Assembly (NCBI RefSeq): GCF_002160915.1
Contig: NZ_NFLM01000024.1
Coordinates: 1 to 35,033 of the forward strand
From: Faecalibacterium sp. An121
GTDB lineage: Bacteria > Bacillota > Clostridia > Oscillospirales > Ruminococcaceae
Direction of reading: 5' to 3'
Length of the DNA: 35,033 nt
Made by a program: the position numbers and the translations under genes. Below are positions 44 to 32,806 of the stretch, piece after piece. The notes under the pieces were generated by a model, which was given only the letters and a program-made list of their open reading frames with translations, did no database searches and was not told the DNA's origin. The number at the start of each line of letters is the position of its first letter. Within the stretch, counting starts at the first letter, position 1.

Positions 44-119
44 TGGTGCCTCCGATCGGAATCGAACCAATGACACGGGGATTTTCAGTCCCCTGCTCTA
101 CCAACTGAGCTACAGAGGC
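44..119 (-). tRNA. tRNA-Phe (anticodon GAA)
   Basis: A complete 76-nt cloverleaf is visible on the minus strand. The acceptor arm GCCTCTG pairs with CGGAGGC, with one G-T pair. The D arm is GCTC/GAGC. The anticodon arm GGGGA/TCCCC holds the loop CTGAAAA, with anticodon GAA. The T arm is ATTGG/CCGAT with loop TTCGATT, and a discriminator A and encoded CCA complete the 3' end. It is the first gene of a two-tRNA (or longer) minus-strand unit. Confidence 0.95.
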
Positions 120-22771: not shown

Positions 22772-23479
22772 TCAGCGCTTGTCCGGCCCGTCCGGCTCGG
22801 GCCGCAGCAGGGGATTGGAGCGGGCGGCCACCTGTGTGGCGGTGGGCGGCAGCTCTCCCTGGGCGGCTTTTTCCAGCTGGCTGACCCGCTGGTCCAGGGC
22901 GGTGATCCGCTGGGCCACCAGATCCGGCAGATCCTGCTGGTCCAGGTCGTCGGCGGGGTTGACCGCCTTGTTGTTGATCCGCACCACTTCGGCGGGCACG
23001 CCCACCGCCGTGCAGTTGGCGGGCAGATTGCGCAGCACCACGCTGCCGGCGCCCACCCGGGCGTTGTCCCCGATGTACACCGGGCCCAGCACCTTGGTGC
23101 CGGCGCCGATCAGCACGTTGTCGCCCAGGGTGGGATGGCGCTTGCCGGTGTCCTTGCCGGTGCCTCCCAGGGTGACCCCGTGGTAGATGGTGCAGTTGTC
23201 CCCGATCTCGGTGGTCTCGCCAAAGACGATGCCCATGCCGTGGTCGATGAACAGCCGGCTGCCGATGGTGGCCCCGGGGTGGATCTCGATGCCGGTCTTG
23301 TGGCGGCCCCGCTGGCTGATCCACCGGGCCAGGAAAAAGTGGCCGTGCCGGTACAGCCAGTGGGCGATGCGGTGATACACCAGGATGTGGAAGCCCGGAT
23401 ACAGCAGCATCACTTCCAGCACGCTGCGGGCGGCCGGGTCTTTGCGCTGGATGTTGCGGGCGTCGTCAAGCAGCCCCAT
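22772..23479 (-). CDS. cysE: Serine O-acetyltransferase
   Basis: CysE acetylates serine with acetyl-CoA, the first step of cysteine synthesis. The 235-residue protein has an N-terminal helical domain ([17 protein letters not shown]) and a left-handed beta-helix of hexapeptide repeats. The motif EIHPGATIG leads to the catalytic [16 protein letters not shown] (His80). [16 protein letters not shown] closes the active site. The C-terminal tail beyond about residue 180 is hydrophilic, contains a short coiled-coil-like [19 protein letters not shown] segment and is longer than in minimal CysE proteins. AAGGAGGGG lies 7 bp before the ATG at 23479. The neighbouring glyA also acts on serine, but the two genes are convergent. 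Confidence 0.95.
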
Positions 23480-23523
23480 AAGCAAACCCCTCCTTGCTTT
23501 TATGACAGGTCTTGTTCCCCTTT

Positions 23524-23588: not shown

Positions 23589-23612
23589 CGCCCCCGCCGG
23601 GGCGGTATTTTT
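23589..23612. terminator. Terminator-like hairpin in the cysE/pyr divergent region
   Basis: CGCCCC (23589-23594) pairs with GGGGCG (23599-23604) around a CGCC loop, followed by GTATTTTT on the plus strand and preceded by AAAA. It lies upstream of both divergent promoters, so it ends no visible gene. It may insulate the two units or be a relic. Confidence 0.4.
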
Positions 23613-23679
23613 GTGAGCTTTACTAAAAATTTACCTGGACAGCGCCCCGACTTCTCACAAACAAAATCCCTCCAGAGCA

Positions 23680-23709
23680 TTGACACTTTTTGCGTTTCTA
23701 TGATAAAAT
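23680..23709 (+). promoter_or_regulatory. Promoter of the pyrC-F-K-D operon
   Basis: A perfect TTGACA (23680-23685) and TAAAAT (23704-23709) are separated by 18 bp, with TGA directly before the -10 box. The start near 23716 gives an unusually long leader of about 245 nt. Confidence 0.8.
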
Positions 23710-23739
23710 ACCTGAAAGACATTCGGGCGCGTCCGAGAA

Positions 23740-23774
23740 GGCCCGGTCCCGCCGGGCCGGATGCAGCCCGGCGG
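23740..23774 (+). other. Mutually exclusive GC-rich hairpins in the pyr leader
   Basis: GGCCCGG (23740-23746) can pair with CCGGGCC (23752-23758). The segment CCGCCGGGC (23749-23757) can instead pair over 9 bp with GCCCGGCGG (23766-23774). The two stems share bases, so only one can form. The second covers the first two G of the Shine-Dalgarno sequence GGAGAGG (23773-23779) of the leader ORF. A switch in leader translation is an inference. Confidence 0.55.
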
Positions 23775-23787
23775 AGAGGAAAGGGGA

Positions 23788-23886
23788 ATGTGTGCCATGC
23801 TGTGCGCCCACGGGTACAACAAGCTGAAAATGTGCTTTGCAGCCGGGTTTTTCGCAGCCGGTGTTTTCCCTGTTCGTGAAAGTTGA
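23788..23886 (+). CDS. Putative pyr operon leader peptide (32 residues)
   Basis: A 33-codon frame starts at ATG 23788 with GGAGAGG (23773-23779) 8 bp upstream, and ends at TGA 23884-23886. The peptide opens with MCAMLCAHGYNKLK, is rich in Ala, Gly, Phe and Val in its second half, and resembles no known protein. Its stop codon's last base is the first base of the terminator stem, so a ribosome reaching the end would cover the 5' arm. T-rich codon runs (GGG TTT TTC, GTT TTC CCT) lie in its second half. It is probably a regulatory reading frame, with no function of the peptide itself. The alternative is a fortuitous short frame. Confidence 0.5.
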   Translation: MCAMLCAHGYNKLKMCFAAGFFAAGVFPVRES

Positions 23887-23919
23887 ACTTTTCCCTTTTT
23901 TGGGGAAAAGTTTTTTTTT
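23886..23919 (+). terminator. Attenuator terminator upstream of pyrC
   Basis: AACTTTTCCC (23886-23895) pairs perfectly with GGGAAAAGTT (23903-23912) around a T-rich 7-nt loop and runs into nine T (23911-23919). It stands 40 bp before the pyrC start and downstream of the strong promoter, so it must be bypassed to express the operon. The segment AAAGT (23879-23883 region) can form a small alternative stem with ACTTT, which overlaps the 5' arm. Confidence 0.85.
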
Positions 23920-23959
23920 GCCCGCGCCCGGCGCGGATCGTGACAAGGAGGAATCAGCC

Positions 23960-25147
23960 ATGCTCATCCAACATGCAGTTGACGTCCACGGCCAGGAGGT
24001 GGAGCTGTATCTCAGCGGCGGCAGGATCCAGGCGGTGGGCCGGGGCCTTGCGGCGCTGGCCGGCCCCGACGAACCGGTGGTGGACGCCGCCGGCCTGACC
24101 GTCCTGCCCGCCTTCGTGGACCTGCACGTCCACTGGCGCACCCCCGGCTTCGAGTACAAGGAGGACGTGGCCACCGGCAGCCGGGCCGCGGCGGCGGGGG
24201 GGTATACCTTCGTCAACCTGATGCCCAACACCAAGCCGGTCTGCTCGTCGGCGGCCCAGGCGGCTGCCGTGGAGGACGAGGCCGCCCGGATGGGCCTGTG
24301 CGATGCCAACCAGACGGTGTCCATCACCCAAAACTTTGACGGCCGCACCCTGGACCACCTCAAGACCCTGCCCGAAACGGTGCGGTTCGTCACCGAGGAC
24401 GGCCATGGGGTGCAGAGCGCCAGCGTCATGGCCAGGGCCTTTGCCATCTGCCATCAGAAGGGCATCACCATCCTGAGCCACGCCGAGGATATGGAGATCA
24501 GCCCCTGGGATTACCGTCTGGCCGAGGACATCGAGACGCTGCGGAACTGCCATCTGAGCGAATACTACCAGACGAGGCTGCATATGTGCCACGTCTCCAC
24601 CCGGGGGTCTGTCGAGGCCGTCCGGATGGCCAAGCTGCGGGGGGCCCCGGTCACCTGCGAGGTGACCCCCCACCATCTGTGGTTCACCGACGATGTGTGC
24701 GATTACCGGGTCAATCCGCCCATCCGCACCGCCGACGATGTGGCTGCCCTGGTGGACGGCATCCGGGACGGCACGGTGGACGCCATCGCCACCGACCACG
24801 CCCCCCACTCGGAGGAGGACAAGGCCGCAGGCGCCGCCGGCATGGTGGGCAGCGAGACCGCCTTCGGGGTGTGCTACACCAAGCTGTGCCGGGGCGAGGG
24901 ACTGCCCCTGGAGGCGCTGAGCGTCCTGATGAGCGAGCGCCCGGCCCAGATCCTGGGGCTGAACAAGGGCCGTCTGGAGCCCGGCTACGACGCCGACCTG
25001 GTGCTGGTGGACCTGGACACGCCCTATACGGTGAAGCGGGAAAACCTGCACTCGAAATCGAAGAACAGCCCCTACGACGGGGCGCAGCTGTACGGCCGGG
25101 TCTGCGCCACCATCAAGGGCGGCTGCCTGACCTACCAGGCCGACTGA
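23960..25147 (+). CDS. pyrC: Dihydroorotase
   Basis: PyrC cyclises N-carbamoyl-aspartate to dihydroorotate, the third step of UMP synthesis. The 395-residue amidohydrolase has the metal motif DLHVHWRTPG, then PNTKP and TEDGHGVQSA, where an Asp is the likely bridging ligand. ILSHAED, MCHVSTRGS and the catalytic ATDHAPHS follow. The size and motifs fit the class I, Gram-positive type. The start at 23960 (MLIQHAVDV) has AAGGAGG 8 bp upstream. A longer in-frame start at 23837 would lie inside the leader and is rejected. It is the first gene of pyrC-F-K-D. Confidence 0.95.
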   Translation: MLIQHAVDVHGQEVELYLSGGRIQAVGRGLAALAGPDEPVVDAAGLTVLPAFVDLHVHWRTPGFEYKEDVATGSRAAAAGGYTFVNLMPNTKPVCSSAAQAAAVEDEAARMGLCDANQTVSITQNFDGRTLDHLKTLPETVRFVTEDGHGVQSASVMARAFAICHQKGITILSHAEDMEISPWDYRLAEDIETLRNCHLSEYYQTRLHMCHVSTRGSVEAVRMAKLRGAPVTCEVTPHHLWFTDDVCDYRVNPPIRTADDVAALVDGIRDGTVDAIATDHAPHSEEDKAAGAAGMVGSETAFGVCYTKLCRGEGLPLEALSVLMSERPAQILGLNKGRLEPGYDADLVLVDLDTPYTVKRENLHSKSKNSPYDGAQLYGRVCATIKGGCLTYQAD

Positions 25148-25172: not shown

Positions 25173-26045
25173 ATGATGAATACCAACATGGACAAGCTGT
25201 ATGAGGCGGTCGAGGCCCGGGGCCCGGTGTGCGTGGGCCTGGACACCGACTTTTCCTACCTGCCCGAGACGTTCGTGGATAAGACCCTGTCCAAGGGGGA
25301 GAACATCGTCCGGTTCAACAAGGCCCTGATCGAGGCCACCAAGGCGGTGGCGGGCTGCTACAAGGTGCAGATCGCCTATTATGAGGCCCTGGGCCTGGAC
25401 GGGCTGCGGGCCTACGCCCAGACCCTCAAGGCCGTGCGGGAGGCCGGCGTGCCGGTCATTGCGGACATCAAGCGGGGCGACATCGCCAAGACCGCCGAGA
25501 TGTATGCCATCGGCCACTTTACGGGGGACTTTGAGGCGGACTTCGTCACCCTGGCCCCCTACATGGGCCTGGATTCCATCAGCCCCTACCTGCCCTATGC
25601 GGAAAAGCAGGGCAAGGGCCTGTTCGTGCTCTGCCGCACCTCCAACGGCGGCGCCAAGGACTTTGAATACGAGAAGCTGGCCGACGGCCGCCACGTCTAC
25701 GACCTGGTGGGGGACAAGCTGAACGCCCTGGGCAAGGACTACATGGGCCGGCACGGCTATTCGTCCATCGGCCTGGTGATCGGGGGCACCCACATCGAGG
25801 AGGCCGCCGAGATCCGCGCCCGCTACAAGGACAGCTTCTTCCTCATCCCCGGCTACGGCGCCCAGGGCGGCAAGGCCGAGGACATCGCACAGTACCTCAA
25901 CCAGGGCAACGGCGGCACCGTCAACTCCAGCCGGGGCATCCTGCTGGCCTACAAAAAGCAGCCCGGCGCGGCCTTTGACGAGGCGGCCTACAACGAGTGT
26001 GTGGATATGAAGGAGGCCATCGCCCATGCGTGCAGCCTGCTGTGA
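25173..26045 (+). CDS. pyrF: Orotidine 5'-phosphate decarboxylase (type 2)
   Basis: PyrF decarboxylates OMP to UMP, the last step of the pathway. The 290-residue protein belongs to the longer type 2 subfamily. It carries the catalytic DIKRGDIAKTAEMYA motif, with VGLDTDFSYLP near the N-terminus and IPGYGAQGGKAEDI for phosphate binding. Two adjacent ATG codons (25173, 25176) follow GGAGAGGG, and the second has the better spacing. The last 20 bases overlap pyrK. Confidence 0.95.
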   Translation: MMNTNMDKLYEAVEARGPVCVGLDTDFSYLPETFVDKTLSKGENIVRFNKALIEATKAVAGCYKVQIAYYEALGLDGLRAYAQTLKAVREAGVPVIADIKRGDIAKTAEMYAIGHFTGDFEADFVTLAPYMGLDSISPYLPYAEKQGKGLFVLCRTSNGGAKDFEYEKLADGRHVYDLVGDKLNALGKDYMGRHGYSSIGLVIGGTHIEEAAEIRARYKDSFFLIPGYGAQGGKAEDIAQYLNQGNGGTVNSSRGILLAYKKQPGAAFDEAAYNECVDMKEAIAHACSLL

Positions 26046-26805
26046 AGCCCAGGTGCTGCGCCACACCGCCATCCAGCCGGACATCCGGCTGCTGGAGGTG
26101 CTCTGGCCTGACCCGGCCCACGCCCCCCATGCGGGGCAGTTCTTCACCCTGCGCAGCTGGGGCGCCGGGGAAGGGCCGTTCCTGTCCCGGCCCATCAGCG
26201 TCCACAAGTGGGAGAGCGAGACGCTGACCGTCTCCTTCCTCTACCAGCTGGTGGGGGAGGGCACCCGGAAGCTGGCCGCCCTCCAGCCCGGGGACCGCTT
26301 GCAGCTGACGGGGCCGATGGGCAACGGCTTTGACCTGCCCGCCCTGGCGGCGCAGTACCGGCGCATCGCCCTGGTGGGAGGCGGCATCGGCACCGCGCCC
26401 ATGTACCAGACCGCCCGGGAGCTGGCGGCTTTGGGCATCCGGCCGGATGTGTTTTTCGGCTTCCGGGACCAGCCCTACTGCATGGAGCCCTACCGCGCCC
26501 TGGCGGGTGTGGTGAAGGTGTCCACCGACAGCGGCCGGGTGGGGTTCCACGGCTTTGTCACCCAGCTGTATGACCCGGCGGACTACGACCTGGTGCTGAT
26601 CTGCGGGCCGATGCCCATGATGCGGAATGCCGCCCGCCTGTGCGCGGAGAAGGGCACCCCCTGTCTGGTCAGCCTGGAAAAGAAGATGGCCTGCGGCATC
26701 GGGGCCTGCCTGGGCTGCACCATCGAGACGGCGGCCGGGGCCAAAAGCGTGTGTAAGGACGGCCCGGTCTTTTGGGGAACGGAGGTGTTTGGATGGCAGA
26801 CCTGA
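26026..26805 (+). CDS. pyrK: Dihydroorotate dehydrogenase B, electron transfer subunit
   Basis: PyrK carries FAD and a [2Fe-2S] cluster and links PyrD to NAD+. The 259-residue protein has the flavin motif SRPIS (54-58), the nucleotide-binding GGGIGTAPM and the cluster cysteines Cys223, Cys228, Cys231 and Cys243 in CGIGACLGC...C. Its start lies inside pyrF, with AAGGAGG (26009-26015) 10 bp upstream, so translation is probably coupled. pyrD overlaps its 3' end by 13 bp. Together they make the class 1B heterotetramer. Confidence 0.95.
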   Translation: MRAACCEAQVLRHTAIQPDIRLLEVLWPDPAHAPHAGQFFTLRSWGAGEGPFLSRPISVHKWESETLTVSFLYQLVGEGTRKLAALQPGDRLQLTGPMGNGFDLPALAAQYRRIALVGGGIGTAPMYQTARELAALGIRPDVFFGFRDQPYCMEPYRALAGVVKVSTDSGRVGFHGFVTQLYDPADYDLVLICGPMPMMRNAARLCAEKGTPCLVSLEKKMACGIGACLGCTIETAAGAKSVCKDGPVFWGTEVFGWQT

Positions 26806-27710
26806 CAACGGAACTGCTGGGCTTCCGGATGAACAGCCCGGTCATTGGCGCTTCGGGCACGGTGGGCTACGGCGTGGAATACGAGGACCTGGCCGACTTT
26901 GGAAAGATCGGCGGAATCTCGGGCAAGGGGCTGACTTTGCACGGCCAGTTCGGCAACAAGGGCGAGCGGCTGTGGGAGACCCCCTCGGGGCTGATCAACA
27001 GCATCGGGCTGCAGAATCCCGGCGTGCAGCACTTCATCGAGGTGGAGCTGCCCGAGATGCTGGCCCTGAAAGCGGCCTACGGCACGGTGGTCATCGCCAA
27101 CCTTGGCGGCCACAGTGAGGAAGAATACGTGGAGGGCGCGGCCCTTCTGGACGGCAGCGCCGTGGACATCGTGGAGCTGAACATCAGCTGCCCCAACGTC
27201 AAGCAGGGGGGGATGGCCTACGGGGTCAAGGCCGAGGCCGCAGGGGAAGTGGTGCGGATGGTGCGCCAGGTGTGCAAAAAGCCCCTGATGGTCAAGCTCA
27301 GCCCCCAGGCCGAGAACATCCCCGCGATGTGCCGGGCGGTGGAACAGGCCGGGGCCGACGCCATCAGCCTGACCAACACCTTCCAGGCCTGCGCCATCGA
27401 CCTGGAAAAGCGCCGCCCCGTCTTTGACAACATCTTTGCGGGCCTGTCCGGCCCGGCGGTGCGCCCCATCGCGCTGCGGATGGTCTGGCAGGCCGTGGGG
27501 GCCGTGCAGATCCCGGTGGTGGGCCTGGGCGGCATCGCCACCGGCCGCGACGCGCTGGAGTTCATCATGGCGGGCGCCGCCGCCGTGCAGGTGGGGGCCG
27601 CCAACTTTGCAAACCCCCGCGCCATGGAGACGGTGGCCTGCGAGATGGCCGCGTGGATGGACGCCCACGGGGTGTCCACCCTCGACGAGATCCGGGGCTG
27701 TGCCCGCTGA
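26793..27710 (+). CDS. pyrD: Dihydroorotate dehydrogenase B, catalytic subunit
   Basis: PyrD oxidises dihydroorotate to orotate with FMN. The 305-residue TIM-barrel protein is of class 1B, shown by the catalytic Cys133 in NISCPNVKQGG (class 2 uses Ser) and by its partner pyrK. Other signatures are GASGTVGYG, NSIGLQNPG and VVGLGGIATGRDALEFI. The ATG at 26793 has GGAGGT 7 bp upstream. An extension from a TTG at 26772 is less likely. It ends the first pyr unit, and no clear intrinsic terminator follows before the pyrE promoter. Confidence 0.95.
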   Translation: MADLTTELLGFRMNSPVIGASGTVGYGVEYEDLADFGKIGGISGKGLTLHGQFGNKGERLWETPSGLINSIGLQNPGVQHFIEVELPEMLALKAAYGTVVIANLGGHSEEEYVEGAALLDGSAVDIVELNISCPNVKQGGMAYGVKAEAAGEVVRMVRQVCKKPLMVKLSPQAENIPAMCRAVEQAGADAISLTNTFQACAIDLEKRRPVFDNIFAGLSGPAVRPIALRMVWQAVGAVQIPVVGLGGIATGRDALEFIMAGAAAVQVGAANFANPRAMETVACEMAAWMDAHGVSTLDEIRGCAR

Positions 27711-27763
27711 TCATGCCGAAAAGTATGCATATATAAACTAAAACTAAAATATCGCGAATAAAG

Positions 27764-27792
27764 TTGCATTTTCGACATCTGCGTGTTACAAT
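27764..27792 (+). promoter_or_regulatory. Promoter of pyrE-carA-carB
   Basis: TTGCAT (27764-27769) and TACAAT (27787-27792) are separated by 17 bp. An A/T-rich tract (27727-27760, with two AACTAAA-like repeats) lies just upstream and could act as an UP element. The leader is about 40 nt and has no attenuator. Confidence 0.75.
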
Positions 27793-27837
27793 ACCGTGAG
27801 ACGCACCTATTTGGTTTGAAGACAAGGGAGAACGACA

Positions 27838-28431
27838 ATGAGTGAAGCGATCGAGATTTTGAAGAGCTGTGACGCATTTCTGGAAGGCCACTTCCTGCTG
27901 TCCTCGGGGCGGCATTCCAGCGCCTACTGCCAGATGGCCTATCTGCAGCAGTACCCCGACCGGTGCGCCGAGGTGATGGCCCCGGTGGCGGCCAGGATCA
28001 GGGAGCTGGGGGCGGACGTCATCGTGGGGCCTGCCATGGGCGGCATCGTCTACGCCTATGAGCTGGCCCGCCAGACCGGGCTGCGGGCCATCTTCACCGA
28101 GCGGGTGGACAATGTGATGACCCTGAAGCGGTTCGCCATCCATCCGGGCGAGAAGTGCATCATCGCGGAGGACGTGGTGACCACCGGCATCTCCTCCCTG
28201 GAGACCAAGCGTGCCATCGAGGAGGCCGGCGGCATCTGCCTGGGCATCACCTGCGTGGTGGACCGCACCAAGCCCGAGGCGCCCTCTCCCATCCCCATCC
28301 TGGCCAGCGCCCTCAAGCTGGACCTGCCCAACTACGCTCCCGAGGAGTGCCCCCTGTGCAGGGAGGGCAAGCTGCCCCTGGTGCACCTGGGCAGCCGGAA
28401 GATGAGCCAGCAGGCCAAGCAGACCCTGTAA
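27838..28431 (+). CDS. pyrE: Orotate phosphoribosyltransferase
   Basis: PyrE joins orotate and PRPP to give OMP. The 197-residue type I phosphoribosyltransferase has HFLLSSGRHSSAYCQ, the GPAMGGIVYAYELAR segment and the PRPP loop IIAEDVVTTG. The C-terminal CPLCREGKLPLVHLGSRK is typical of the subgroup found in Clostridia. AAGGGAG lies upstream of the ATG. It opens the second pyr unit and precedes carA by 30 bp. Confidence 0.95.
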   Translation: MSEAIEILKSCDAFLEGHFLLSSGRHSSAYCQMAYLQQYPDRCAEVMAPVAARIRELGADVIVGPAMGGIVYAYELARQTGLRAIFTERVDNVMTLKRFAIHPGEKCIIAEDVVTTGISSLETKRAIEEAGGICLGITCVVDRTKPEAPSPIPILASALKLDLPNYAPEECPLCREGKLPLVHLGSRKMSQQAKQTL

Positions 28432-28461
28432 GTCCTGCGCAAGATAAAACGAGGGAACGCA

Positions 28462-29568
28462 ATGAACGCATATCTTCTTTTGGCAAACGGGATGGTGTTT
28501 GCGGGCCGTTCGGTGGGCGCTGCGGGCGTCACGGTGGGCGAGGTGGTCTTTGCCACCGGCATGGTGGGCTTTGAGGAGACCCTGACCGACCCGAGCTACT
28601 ACGGCCAGATCATCACCCAGACCTACCCGCTGATCGGCAACTATGGGATGAACCGCTGGGACATGGAGTCGCAGCGGGTGTGGGCCCGGGGCTACATCGT
28701 CCGGGAGGCCTGCACCACCCCCTCCAACTGGCGCAGCGAGGAGACGCTGGACAGCTTTTTGAAGCGGAACGGGATCATCGGCATCGAGGGCATCGACACG
28801 CGGCGTCTGACCCGGATCATCCGGGAGAGCGGCGTCATGAACGGCGCCATCCTGACCGAGTTCGACCCCGCCGACCCGGCCAACGCCGGCCGCACCCAGG
28901 CGCTGCTGGACGAGGTGCGGGCCTATGCCGTCACCGATGCGGTCAAGAACGTCACCTGCACCCGGCCCCAGGTACACAACCCCCAGGGCAGCCCCCACAT
29001 CGTGCTGATGGATTACGGCTGCAAGCGGAACATCGTCCGCTGCCTGGTGCGCCGGGGCTGCAAGGTGACGGTGATGCCCGCCTTCTCCACCGCGGAGGAG
29101 GTGGCCGCCCTGGCCCCCGACGGCATCATGCTGTCCAACGGTCCCGGGGACCCCGCCGAGCCGGTGCAGGCCATCGAGAACCTGCGCCGGATCTTCGAGC
29201 TGAACATCCCCACCTTCGGCATCTGTCTGGGCCATCAGCTGTCCGCCCTGGCGGCCGGCGCCAAGACCACCAAGCTCAAGTACGGGCACCGGGGCGCCAA
29301 CCAGCCGGTCACCGACTTTGCCAGCGGGCGCACCTTCATCACCAGCCAGAACCACGGCTATGCGGTGGTGGGGGACCAGCTGCCCGCCGAGATGGGCGCG
29401 GTGGCCCAGGTCAACGCCAACGACGGCACCTGCGAGGGCATCCAGTACAAGAAATGGAATTGCTTCACCGTCCAGTTCCACCCGGAAGCGAACGGCGGCC
29501 CCAAGGACACCGAGTTTCTGTTCGACCGCTTCCTGACCAACGTAAAGAACGCAAAGGAGGCGCGCTGA
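28462..29568 (+). CDS. carA: Carbamoyl-phosphate synthase small subunit
   Basis: CarA hydrolyses glutamine and passes ammonia to CarB for carbamoyl phosphate, used for pyrimidines and arginine. The 368-residue protein has the CPSase small-chain N-domain (VGEVVFATGMVGFEETLTDPSY, cited in part). Its class I glutaminase has Cys255 in FGICLGHQ and the His340/Glu342 pair in QFHPE. It directly precedes carB, with one base between stop and start. No arginine genes are nearby, so this copy probably serves pyrimidine synthesis. Confidence 0.96.
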   Translation: MNAYLLLANGMVFAGRSVGAAGVTVGEVVFATGMVGFEETLTDPSYYGQIITQTYPLIGNYGMNRWDMESQRVWARGYIVREACTTPSNWRSEETLDSFLKRNGIIGIEGIDTRRLTRIIRESGVMNGAILTEFDPADPANAGRTQALLDEVRAYAVTDAVKNVTCTRPQVHNPQGSPHIVLMDYGCKRNIVRCLVRRGCKVTVMPAFSTAEEVAALAPDGIMLSNGPGDPAEPVQAIENLRRIFELNIPTFGICLGHQLSALAAGAKTTKLKYGHRGANQPVTDFASGRTFITSQNHGYAVVGDQLPAEMGAVAQVNANDGTCEGIQYKKWNCFTVQFHPEANGGPKDTEFLFDRFLTNVKNAKEAR

Positions 29569-29569
29569 T

Positions 29570-32500
29570 ATGCCCAAGGACCCCAGAATCAAAAAGGTAC
29601 TGGTGATCGGCTCGGGGCCCATCATCATCGGCCAGGCGGCTGAGTTCGACTATTCGGGCACCCAGGCCTGCCGGGCCCTCAAGGCGGAGGGGATCGAGAC
29701 GGTCCTGCTCAACTCCAACCCCGCCACCATCATGACCGACCCCGACGTGGCCGACCACGTCTACATCGAGCCCATGACCCTGGAGGTGGTGGAGCGGATC
29801 CTGGACATCGAGAAGCCCGACTCGGTGCTGCCCAACCTGGGCGGCCAGATGGGCCTGAACCTGTCCATGGAGCTGGCCCGCAGCGGCTATCTGGACCGCA
29901 CCGGCATCCGGCTCCTGGCCTGCAAGCCCGAGACCATCGACCGGGCCGAGGACCGGGAGCTGTTCAAGGAGACGATGGAGAAGCTGCACCAGCCCATCAT
30001 CCCCTCGGAGGTGGTGGAGACGCTGGAGGACGCGCTGGCCTGCGCCGACCGCATCGGTTACCCGGTCATCGTGCGGCCCGCCTTCACCATGGGCGGCACC
30101 GGCGGCGGCATCTGCGAGAACAAGGCCAAGCTGATCGAGATCGGCACCAACGGCCTGCGTCTTTCCCCCATCCATCAGATCCTGGTGGAAAAGTGCATCG
30201 CCGGCTGGAAAGAGATCGAGTATGAGGTGATGCGGGACCACAAGGGGAACGTCATCACCGTCTGCAACATGGAGAACCTGGACCCCGTGGGCATCCACAC
30301 CGGCGACTCGGTGGTGGTGGCCCCCAGCCAGACCCTGAGCGACCACGAATACCAGATGCTGCGCACCGCGGCGCTGGACATCATCACCGAGCTGGGGATC
30401 GAGGGCGGCTGCAACTGCCAGTTTGCCCTCAAGCCGGACAGCTTCGACTACGCGGTCATCGAGGTCAACCCCCGTGTGTCCCGCTCGTCGGCCCTGGCCT
30501 CCAAGGCCACCGGCTATCCCATCGCCAAGGTGGCCACCAAGATCGCCATCGGCTACACCCTGGACGAGATCACCAACGACGTCACCGGCAAGACCTGCGC
30601 CTGCTTTGAGCCGGCTTTGGACTACATCGTGGTCAAGTACCCCAAGTGGCCCTTCGACAAGTTCGTCTATGCGGACAAGTCCCTGGGCACCCAGATGATG
30701 GCCACCGGCGAGGTGATGAGCATCGGCAACAGCTTCGAGGCCGCCATGATGAAGGCCGTCTCCTCCATCGAGCTGGGGATGGACACCCTGACCCACAAGC
30801 CCTTTGAGGAGCTGAGCGACCAGGAGATCATCTCCCACCTGTATGTGCAGGATTCCGAGCGCGTGTTCTGCGTCTACGAGGCCCTCAAGCGGGGCATCGA
30901 CCACCAGACCATCTACAACATCACCAAGATCGACTGGTGGTTTTTGGACAAGATGCAGCACCTGGCCAACCTGGAGAACGGCCTGGCCCGCTGCAGCGGC
31001 CAGCTGAGCGAGGAGCAGTACAAGGAGGCCAAGAAGTACGGCTTCCAGGACAAGACCATCCGCCGGCTGGCCGGGGTGGAGAAGCTGCCCGTCGAGGATT
31101 ACCGGGCCGGCTTCAAGATGGTGGATACCTGCGCCGCTGAGTTCTCGGCCAACACCCCCTATTTCTACTCCACCTACGACGGGGACAACGAGGCCGCAGC
31201 CTTCATCGAGGAGAAGGAGGCGGGCCGGCCCCACAAAAAGCGGGTGCTGGTGTTCGGTTCGGGCCCCATCCGGATCGGACAGGGCATCGAGTTCGACTAC
31301 TGCTCGGTGCACTGCGTCTGGACGCTGAAAAAGCACGGCTGTGAGGCCATCCTGGTCAACAACAACCCCGAGACGGTGTCCACCGACTTTGACACCGGCG
31401 ACCGGCTCTACTTCGACCCCCTGACCCCCGAGAGCGTGGACAACATCATCGCCACCGAAAAGCCGGACGGGTGTGTGGTGCAGTTTGGCGGGCAGACCGC
31501 CATCAAGCTGGCCAAGCACATGGACGAGATCGGCCTGCCCATCCTGGGCACCCCGGCGGACGCCATCGACGAGGCCGAGGACCGGGAGCGGTTCGACGAG
31601 CTGCTGGAGCGCTGCGGCATCCCCCGCGCCCCCGGCCGCACCGTCTTTACCCTGGAGGAGGCCCTGGCCGCCGCCGAGGAGATCGGCCTGCCGGTCCTGA
31701 TGCGCCCGTCCTATGTGCTGGGCGGTCAGAACATGATCGTGGCCTACACCCGGGAGGACGTCATCGAGTATATGGGCGTCATCACCGAGCACGTGGACAT
31801 GGATCATCCGGTGCTGCTGGATAAGTACATCCAGGGCATCGAGTGCGAGGTGGACGCCATCTGCGACGGCACCGACTACCTGATCCCCGGCATCATGGAG
31901 CAGGTGGAGCGGACCGGCGTCCACTCGGGCGACTCGATCTGCGTCTACCCGGCGCAGCACCTGTCCCAGAGCATCATCGACACCATGGTGGACTACACCG
32001 GCCGGTTTGCCCGGGAGCTGAAGGTGGTGGGCCTGGTCAACGTCCAGTACGCCGTGTCGGACGGCAAGGTGTACGTCATCGAGGTCAACCCCCGGTCGTC
32101 CCGCACCGTGCCCTATATCTCCAAGGTCACCGGCGTGCCCATGGTGGACCTGGCGGTCCGCTGCTGTCTGGGCGAAAAGCTGGCCGACATGGGCTACGGC
32201 ACCGGACTGCACCCCAACGCCCCCTATGTGGCGGTCAAGGTGCCGGTGTTCAGCTTTGAGAAGCTCCACGGGGTGGATACCCAGTTCGGCCCCGAGATGA
32301 AGTCCACCGGCGAGGTGCTGGGCATCGCGCCCAACTACCACGACGCGCTGCTCAAGGGCCTCATCGGCGCGGGCTATACCTTCAAGACCCCCGGCCCCGC
32401 CAGCTGCTGCATCTTCACCGTCAAGGACAGCGACAAGCCCGAGTTCGTGGACATCGCCTGGAAGCTCAAGAGCATGGGCTACAAGCTGTACGGCACCTCG

Positions 32501-32806
32501 GGCACCTGCGCCTGGCTGAACAAGCACATGGTGCCCTGCAACGAGGTGCGCAATATGTCGGGCGAGTCGCCCAACATCGTGGACCTGCTCCAGAGCGGTC
32601 TGGTGGACTATGTCTTTTCCACCAGCGCCCGGGGCCGCGACCCCCACAGAGACTCGGTCCGCCTGCGCCGCAAGGCCGTCGAACTGAGCATCCCCTGCAT
32701 CACCGCGGTGGATACGGCCAATGCACTGGTCAACTGCCTGCGCAGCGAGCACAGCCTGAAGGACGTTCCCCTGGTGGATATTGCCACGCTGTATCAGGGG
32801 AAATGA
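29570..32806 (+). CDS. carB: Carbamoyl-phosphate synthase large subunit
   Basis: CarB makes carbamoyl phosphate from bicarbonate, ammonia and two ATP. The 1078-residue protein is full length, with two homologous ATP-grasp halves. The first begins KKVLVIGSGPIIIGQAAEFDYS, cited in part, and the second begins RVLVFGSGPIRIGQGIEFDY. An oligomerisation domain lies between them. A C-terminal MGS-like regulatory domain (about 940-1078) is where UMP or ornithine would act. AAAGGAGG lies upstream, inside carA. No terminator was found before the hup promoter. Confidence 0.97.
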   Translation: MPKDPRIKKVLVIGSGPIIIGQAAEFDYSGTQACRALKAEGIETVLLNSNPATIMTDPDVADHVYIEPMTLEVVERILDIEKPDSVLPNLGGQMGLNLSMELARSGYLDRTGIRLLACKPETIDRAEDRELFKETMEKLHQPIIPSEVVETLEDALACADRIGYPVIVRPAFTMGGTGGGICENKAKLIEIGTNGLRLSPIHQILVEKCIAGWKEIEYEVMRDHKGNVITVCNMENLDPVGIHTGDSVVVAPSQTLSDHEYQMLRTAALDIITELGIEGGCNCQFALKPDSFDYAVIEVNPRVSRSSALASKATGYPIAKVATKIAIGYTLDEITNDVTGKTCACFEPALDYIVVKYPKWPFDKFVYADKSLGTQMMATGEVMSIGNSFEAAMMKAVSSIELGMDTLTHKPFEELSDQEIISHLYVQDSERVFCVYEALKRGIDHQTIYNITKIDWWFLDKMQHLANLENGLARCSGQLSEEQYKEAKKYGFQDKTIRRLAGVEKLPVEDYRAGFKMVDTCAAEFSANTPYFYSTYDGDNEAAAFIEEKEAGRPHKKRVLVFGSGPIRIGQGIEFDYCSVHCVWTLKKHGCEAILVNNNPETVSTDFDTGDRLYFDPLTPESVDNIIATEKPDGCVVQFGGQTAIKLAKHMDEIGLPILGTPADAIDEAEDRERFDELLERCGIPRAPGRTVFTLEEALAAAEEIGLPVLMRPSYVLGGQNMIVAYTREDVIEYMGVITEHVDMDHPVLLDKYIQGIECEVDAICDGTDYLIPGIMEQVERTGVHSGDSICVYPAQHLSQSIIDTMVDYTGRFARELKVVGLVNVQYAVSDGKVYVIEVNPRSSRTVPYISKVTGVPMVDLAVRCCLGEKLADMGYGTGLHPNAPYVAVKVPVFSFEKLHGVDTQFGPEMKSTGEVLGIAPNYHDALLKGLIGAGYTFKTPGPASCCIFTVKDSDKPEFVDIAWKLKSMGYKLYGTSGTCAWLNKHMVPCNEVRNMSGESPNIVDLLQSGLVDYVFSTSARGRDPHRDSVRLRRKAVELSIPCITAVDTANALVNCLRSEHSLKDVPLVDIATLYQGK

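Follow-up and report, generated by a model that had tools for sequence, protein, structure and literature searches.

Why should pyrC of a Faecalibacterium be preceded by a short open reading frame (ORF) whose stop codon runs into a transcription terminator? The question is raised by a stretch of 35,033 nucleotides from Faecalibacterium sp. An121 (NCBI RefSeq assembly GCF_002160915.1, contig NZ_NFLM01000024.1, positions 1 to 35,033; hereafter the window), in which an earlier note, made from the sequence alone, had proposed a pyrBI-like attenuator. Our answer is that this is quite probably a translation-coupled transcription attenuator that senses UTP and works like those of Escherichia coli pyrBI and pyrE. 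The features concerned are these.

47-119, reverse strand: tRNA gene (Rfam, at gathering score; no other match in the window).
22772-23485, reverse strand: cysE, serine acetyltransferase, divergent and sharing its intergenic region with the pyr leader (TIGR01172 above cut-off).
23680-23709, forward strand: promoter with an extended -10 TG, 11 of 12 consensus matches.
23772-23787, forward strand: Shine-Dalgarno (SD) region, GGAGAGG and then AAAGGGG, the part common to relatives being AAGGGG (sequence and comparison with relatives).
23797-23886, forward strand: putative leader ORF of 29 codons, MLCAHGYNKLKMCFAAGFFAAGVFPVRES, from the start common to relatives; 32 codons if the ATG at 23788 is used.
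23839-23883, forward strand: final 45 nt of the leader ORF, rich in T (33% by base counts; mean 40% over 70 loci).
23886-23919, forward strand: predicted intrinsic terminator, called at sequence level, with a perfect 10-bp stem, a 7-nt loop and 9 T.
23960-25147, forward strand: pyrC, dihydroorotase, first gene of the operon (TIGR00857 above cut-off).
25173-26045, forward strand: pyrF (family above cut-off).
26026-26805, forward strand: pyrK (family above cut-off).
26772-27710, forward strand: pyrD (family above cut-off).
27838-28431, forward strand: pyrE (family above cut-off).
28462-29568, forward strand: carA (family above cut-off).
29570-32806, forward strand: carB (family above cut-off).

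The operon order is pyrC-F-K-D-E-carA-carB, with the genes after pyrC spanning 25173-32806 on the forward strand. The strong promoter that the earlier note had seen stands up well: TTGACA and TAAAAT, separated by 18 nt and with TG ahead of the second hexamer, make up the only promoter-like match between 22000 and 26000, where 0.2 would be expected, and near relatives retain it, as judged by eye. Equally intact is the perfect terminator said to share a base with the stop codon. Indeed, the last base of the TGA (23884-23886) is the first base of the stem, the arms AACTTTTCCC (23886-23895) and GGGAAAAGTT (23903-23912) form 10 of 10 pairs around the loop TTTTTTG (23896-23902), and a T run follows at 23911-23919. 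The leader fold beats 198 of 200 shuffles (z -2.8), and the terminator pattern of the window matches once genome-wide and not at all in a reversed control, no second leader copy being found. The ORF, on the other hand, had been described as 32 codons (23788-23886, MCAMLCAHGYNKLKMCFAAGFFAAGVFPVRES) with GGAGAGG upstream as its SD sequence, and here the relatives call for a revision. Their start aligns with ATG 23797, giving 29 codons with a purine-rich, SD-like sequence directly 5'; neither ATG 23788 nor GGAGAGG was seen in near relatives, the latter sitting in a GC-rich 5' stretch that the aligned near relatives lack. The ORF itself is present and kept, GGAGAGG is present upstream in the window, and the relatives point to ATG 23797 as a more likely start than ATG 23788, with AAGGGG as the shared part of the ribosome-binding region.

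Further upstream of the pyrC promoter lies an inverted repeat, TTTGTGAG/CTCACAAA, at 23610-23617 and 23654-23661; its first half, TTTGTGAG, has no other match in the genome even with 3 mismatches allowed, and relatives keep the stretch in altered form (TTTTCGGTAGAGTAGCTAAAA). It may be an operator, or it may be part of the divergent cysE. At the pyrB loci of Faecalibacterium, no leader stands before pyrB in the 11 read (of 30 gathered), and a gene for a GntR-family regulator, which we take to be of the UTRA type, lies directly upstream of pyrB at L136:728-1483 and at the corresponding position of the other pyrB loci read from this genus (8 read), its family matches falling below every cut-off. 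This regulator is a candidate for a second layer of pyrimidine control.

Is the arrangement a peculiarity of one strain? The answer is clearly no. Across a sample of 31 Faecalibacterium genomes (genus mates G001-G030 among them), pyrC was found in 30, and in every one of these 30 loci, which comprise 29 distinct upstream regions, an SD-like sequence precedes an ORF whose end lies at or within a terminator. Among 298 genomes sampled from the family, a pyrC of this type, scoring E 1e-110 or better, was found in 44, of which 41 have the leader, before pyrC in 29 (genera g1, g33, g37, g44, g49, g55, g75, g79 and g130) and before pyrB, where pyrB precedes pyrC, in the other 12 (g42, g48, g70, g78, g99 and g108), so the unit tracks the head of the pyr cluster and not any one gene. 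No recognisable leader was found in two genomes with this pyrC type, G174 (g136) and G226 (g144), and a third, G231, was left unscored, its contig beginning inside the upstream genes and the place of its pyrB not being listed. Short T-rich stretches remain upstream of pyrB in G174 and G226 (L253 and L251) and may be decayed copies. An order-wide scan with the exact terminator pattern hit 5 of 394 genomes, four of them known leaders and the fifth G499, where no recognised pyr gene adjoins; as known variants (G087, G137) escape the pattern, little can be read into the genomes without a hit. For what follows we curated 70 leader loci, every one of which has pyrC or pyrB downstream, after re-calling the start and stem of L005, L006, L206, L214 and L254 by hand, correcting the gene start of L248, excluding L237, L240 and L251 as non-leaders and removing 18 duplicates. 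These 70 loci represent 67 distinct ORFs, many from close kin, and p-values are therefore too small.

What has been conserved, then, is of particular interest. In 62 of the 70 loci the last base of the stop codon lies 1 to 3 nt inside the stem, in five it lies 12 to 17 nt inside, in two beyond the terminator (+42 and +52, two distant genera that show the pyrBI geometry) and in one 7 nt ahead of the stem; at the level of sequence, 69 of the 70 putative leaders thus have their stop in or past the stem. When upstream sequence was shuffled (400 times for one locus from each of 14 genus groups), an ORF of at least 20 codons with an SD and ending 1-3 nt into the stem arose in 0.9% of shuffles on average, as against 13 of the 14 real groups, the ORF of the fourteenth being 16 codons long and so under the 20-codon limit. 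The peptide tells a different story, with an identity between genera of 10%, against 8% for shuffled peptides, and of 37% within genera; no residue is conserved at any position from genus to genus, and right-anchored identity is at chance, so no C-terminal stalling motif was found. Stems vary in sequence in g48, g49, g55, g70, g99 and g108 and retain their pairing. A consensus RNA fold of 35 leaders gave no usable structure, the alignment having split the stem, and the leaders may yet contain a hidden structure such as a competing antiterminator hairpin. A kept stop position, a peptide at chance between genera and stems that vary yet pair together argue for selection on an open frame that delivers a ribosome to the stem, and not on the peptide. 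The comparison that had been set beforehand, namely whether relatives keep the ORF, its SD-like sequence and the place of the stop at the stem, accordingly came out in favour of the earlier proposal across genera. Amino-acid attenuation by a leader peptide of the trp, his or phe type fits poorly, since the peptide is not kept between genera and the downstream genes are pyr genes.

How rich in T are the leaders? The T-rich second half that had been noted in the window is there (33% T in the last 45 nt, although below the relatives' mean of 40%), and across all 70 loci the last 45 nt range from 24 to 62% T with a mean of 40%. In the 34 leaders with pyrC at hand this 40% compares with 15.6% in their own pyrC, where none of 4318 windows of 45 nt is as T-rich as the leader mean (the highest being 38%). 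T is also chosen where it makes no difference to the protein: at synonymous T/C codons it is used in 293 of 553 cases in the leaders against 1256 of 8001 in pyrC, Phe is written TTT in 106 of 152 cases against 157 of 322 (34 loci in both comparisons), and the T share at synonymous T/C codons is at least 44% in each of 17 groups. In the final two codons ahead of the stop, T reaches 64% (70 loci). The leader of the window lies below its relatives' mean, with T at 8 of 18 synonymous codons and Phe as two TTT and two TTC. Since T is preferred at synonymous positions, the bias acts at the level of RNA, and a U-rich leader on which RNA polymerase would be expected to pause is a feature of UTP-sensing attenuators, although the T richness might have another use, for instance in keeping the path of the ribosome unstructured. 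We looked for the NusG pause motif TTNTTT, which is absent from the leader of the window and occurs in 53 of the 70 leaders against 43.5 expected; this is no clear excess over composition, and the motif was dropped as a pausing element.

The same data bear on the best of the alternatives, which we nevertheless regard as unlikely: an attenuator of the same build might respond to another signal, be it charged tRNA, the general speed of translation or ppGpp. The ribosome gate would be identical, and Phe is the commonest leader residue (16%), as it would be in any case because its codons are T-rich. In addition, antibiotic-sensing leaders of such a sort do occur in Firmicutes, as described for Bacillus subtilis tlrB (yxjB), where a ribosome near the stop codon of a leader ORF interferes with the terminator in a manner timed by polymerase pausing, the signal being tylosin, sensed via a conserved RYR stalling motif (PMC6851288). 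In our leaders, however, there is no kept motif and no amino acid position kept between genera, T is preferred even where C encodes the same residue, and none of the 70 precedes an amino-acid gene. It is the UTP-sensing reading, in our view, that takes in the anatomy, the conserved ORF and stop, the U bias, the lack of peptide conservation between genera, the link to pyr genes and, as set out below, the lack of PyrR.

PyrR is the obvious competitor in this phylum, since attenuation of the B. subtilis type governs the same genes and likewise stops transcription when pyrimidines abound, and the earlier note had left it standing as an alternative. It does not survive. PyrR attenuation requires both the protein and an RNA element and is used by other genera of the family, whereas neither was found here: the protein (NF003549) scores above cut-off in none of the 31 Faecalibacterium genomes against 16 of 61 relatives (G000 has only weak, partial matches, the best at E 6e-6), in none of the 44 genomes with this pyrC type against 121 of the 254 others (Fisher p 1e-11, kinship ignored), and in none of seven leader-clade genomes behind named loci against two of two Bacillales, the seven partly overlapping the 44 (L052, L053 and L054 are apparently G080, G313 and G188). 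The RNA element was detected in 95 of the 298 family-sample genomes, in none of the 44 and not in the genome of the window. We therefore rejected PyrR-controlled attenuation for the leader-clade genomes examined.

Does the loss of PyrR by itself bring such a leader? It seems not: in 27 further genera that lack PyrR, with one locus upstream of pyrB sampled in each, we found no clear leader, and 23 of these loci had no terminator call, although pyrB is possibly not the operon head in those genera, which makes this weak evidence of absence. A doubtful candidate is L260 (g94), where a 20-codon T-rich ORF, MLHQVNKRKEISFFLCFYLL, stops 5 nt short of an imperfect hairpin that carries a T run, possibly a different build. 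At L274 (g63) a stem comes 4 nt after the end of an ORF that we take to be SpoVM-like, and the locus was set aside; the terminator calls at L255 (g73) and L275 (g96) are not leader-like and were likewise rejected. Thirteen PyrR-positive controls contain no ORF ending in the leader's range, the ORF of L294 ending 27 nt past the stem start.

Another kind of trans-acting regulator, such as an RNA-binding protein, or else a riboswitch or aptamer, could of course govern the terminator and leave the ORF a secondary role. We consider this improbable. The arm CTTTTCC/GGAAAAG is constant in many genera, beyond what pairing needs, and this is the best that can be said for it, but the stems of g48, g49, g55, g70, g99 and g108 depart from it and still pair, the part 5' of the ORF is short and variable among loci, the clade has neither PyrR nor its element, and at gathering score Rfam matches nothing in the window besides the tRNA.

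Still less credit goes to the notion that there is no regulation at all, the ORF simply encoding a small protein and ending at a terminator of its own that leaks, or the terminator being a fixed partial one. The partial conservation of the peptide within genera would fit, but between genera it falls to chance while the stop stays at the stem, and the unit moves to pyrB where pyrB comes first. Nor does the terminator look ordinary: the leader stems are short and U-rich, with energies of -9.2 to -15.1 kcal/mol, against a median of -20.9 for the terminators of one Faecalibacterium genome under the same scoring, and weaker, U-rich stems of this kind would suit a tunable stop. Least plausible of all is an inverse switch, in which an antiterminator would form between the purine-rich SD and the pyrimidine-rich 5' arm and a ribosome initiating on the leader would favour termination, since the complementarity seen by eye between SD regions (for example GAAAAG) and CTTTTC is expected of any purine-rich SD, and the fixed position of the stop is left unexplained.

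How might a UTP-sensing attenuator of this build work? In E. coli, pyrBI control is described as a combination of UTP-dependent pausing and a block by the ribosome (PMC4824070), and for the Faecalibacterium leader we infer the corresponding elements, namely that transcription terminates there in vivo, that a ribosome can block this, that UTP is the signal and that the response depends on translation. RNA polymerase would start just past 23709 and soon expose the SD of the 29-codon ORF, on which a ribosome would load. At high UTP, the polymerase would clear the T-rich half of the ORF and the terminator ahead of the ribosome, so that the hairpin could form and transcription would stop before pyrC. 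At low UTP, it would dwell in the U-rich stretch made up of the end of the ORF, the 5' arm of the stem and the loop, while the ribosome reached the stop codon at the stem foot and covered the 5' arm, permitting readthrough into pyrC-F-K-D-E-carA-carB. The identity of the peptide would not matter, the only need being a ribosome able to reach the stem.

Such a scheme depends on a ribosome that keeps close to the polymerase. In E. coli, termination of about 90% is reported to fall below 10% when a stop codon is placed 5 bp before the terminator, and pausing is described as a requirement for leaders about 100 nt long (both PMC4824070); in B. subtilis, by contrast, polymerase is described as outrunning the ribosomes, a short spacing between stop codon and terminator being taken as a sign of this (PMC7858274). 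Using one method on stretches of three genomes, we obtained a median spacing of 16 nt for a Faecalibacterium, where 120 of 630 ORFs had a terminator call, as against 9 nt for Fictibacillus (138 of 356) and 20 nt for E. coli (63 of 333). Faecalibacterium thus differs from Fictibacillus (p 1e-5), whereas no difference from E. coli was detected (p 0.44). A stricter analysis of a smaller amount of sequence kept the order, with medians of 15, 10 and 22, and mid-gene false calls numbered 25 of 630, 6 of 356 and 15 of 333, respectively. Against this, 20 of the 120 Faecalibacterium calls lie at most 3 nt from a stop codon or inside a gene, compared with 3 of 63 in E. coli, which runs counter to the prediction of strict coupling. 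On this analysis, terminator spacing favours transcription-translation coupling in this lineage, if indirectly.

The comparison with known systems qualifies the pyrBI label. The general anatomy of a UTP-type attenuator fits: like pyrBI, with its leader pyrL, the unit heads a pyrimidine operon and combines a short, T-rich leader (FFF in pyrL) with an intrinsic terminator. However, pyrL has 44 codons that run through the terminator, its stop ending 47 nt after the stem start, whereas 62 of our 70 leaders stop at the stem foot; pyrBI is, moreover, gammaproteobacterial and the Faecalibacterium leader is from a Firmicute. In its stop-at-stem-foot geometry the window is closer to the pyrE attenuator of E. 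coli, where translation of the upstream ORF ends just before the terminator that precedes a pyr gene and the frameshift carried by MG1655 lowers pyrE expression (in that strain the stop of the frameshifted rph lies 34 nt before the stem). There the upstream ORF is a full-length gene, rph, and not a dedicated leader of about 30 codons. As a separate observation, the E. coli pyrBI terminator ends T8-GCCC and most of the leaders here end T9-GCCC, the stems being unrelated; chance, shared constraint or descent could account for this.

In the literature searched (open-licence papers), we found no pyrimidine leader of this sort in this group and no account of pyrimidine control in Faecalibacterium, in keeping with the earlier note, which knew of no such description. 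Histidine leader peptides have been predicted before hisS in bacilli (PMC2965389), and the same paper states that, ermC excepted, none had been shown outside the Proteobacteria and Actinobacteria.

What would all this mean? We think it likely, if a little less so than for the mechanism at this one locus, that a PyrR-less clade of Firmicutes, comprising Faecalibacterium, Gemmiger, Subdoligranulum, Anaerofilum and relatives, uses a ribosome-gated UTP sensor of the pyrBI/pyrE kind that arose independently of the enterobacterial one. If true, this would be a second and seemingly independent lineage of UTP-sensing, translation-coupled attenuators, lying outside the Proteobacteria, in genomes that are without PyrR although many relatives of the same family carry it. 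It would also need a close coupling of transcription and translation, something unexpected in this phylum if one goes by the runaway transcription of B. subtilis, making it a testable matter whether these Clostridia are coupled like E. coli or uncoupled like B. subtilis; the natural variants among the 67 distinct ORFs, with stops at, in or past the stem, furnish a ready test series. And the organism in which the question arises, Faecalibacterium, is a major commensal of the human gut.
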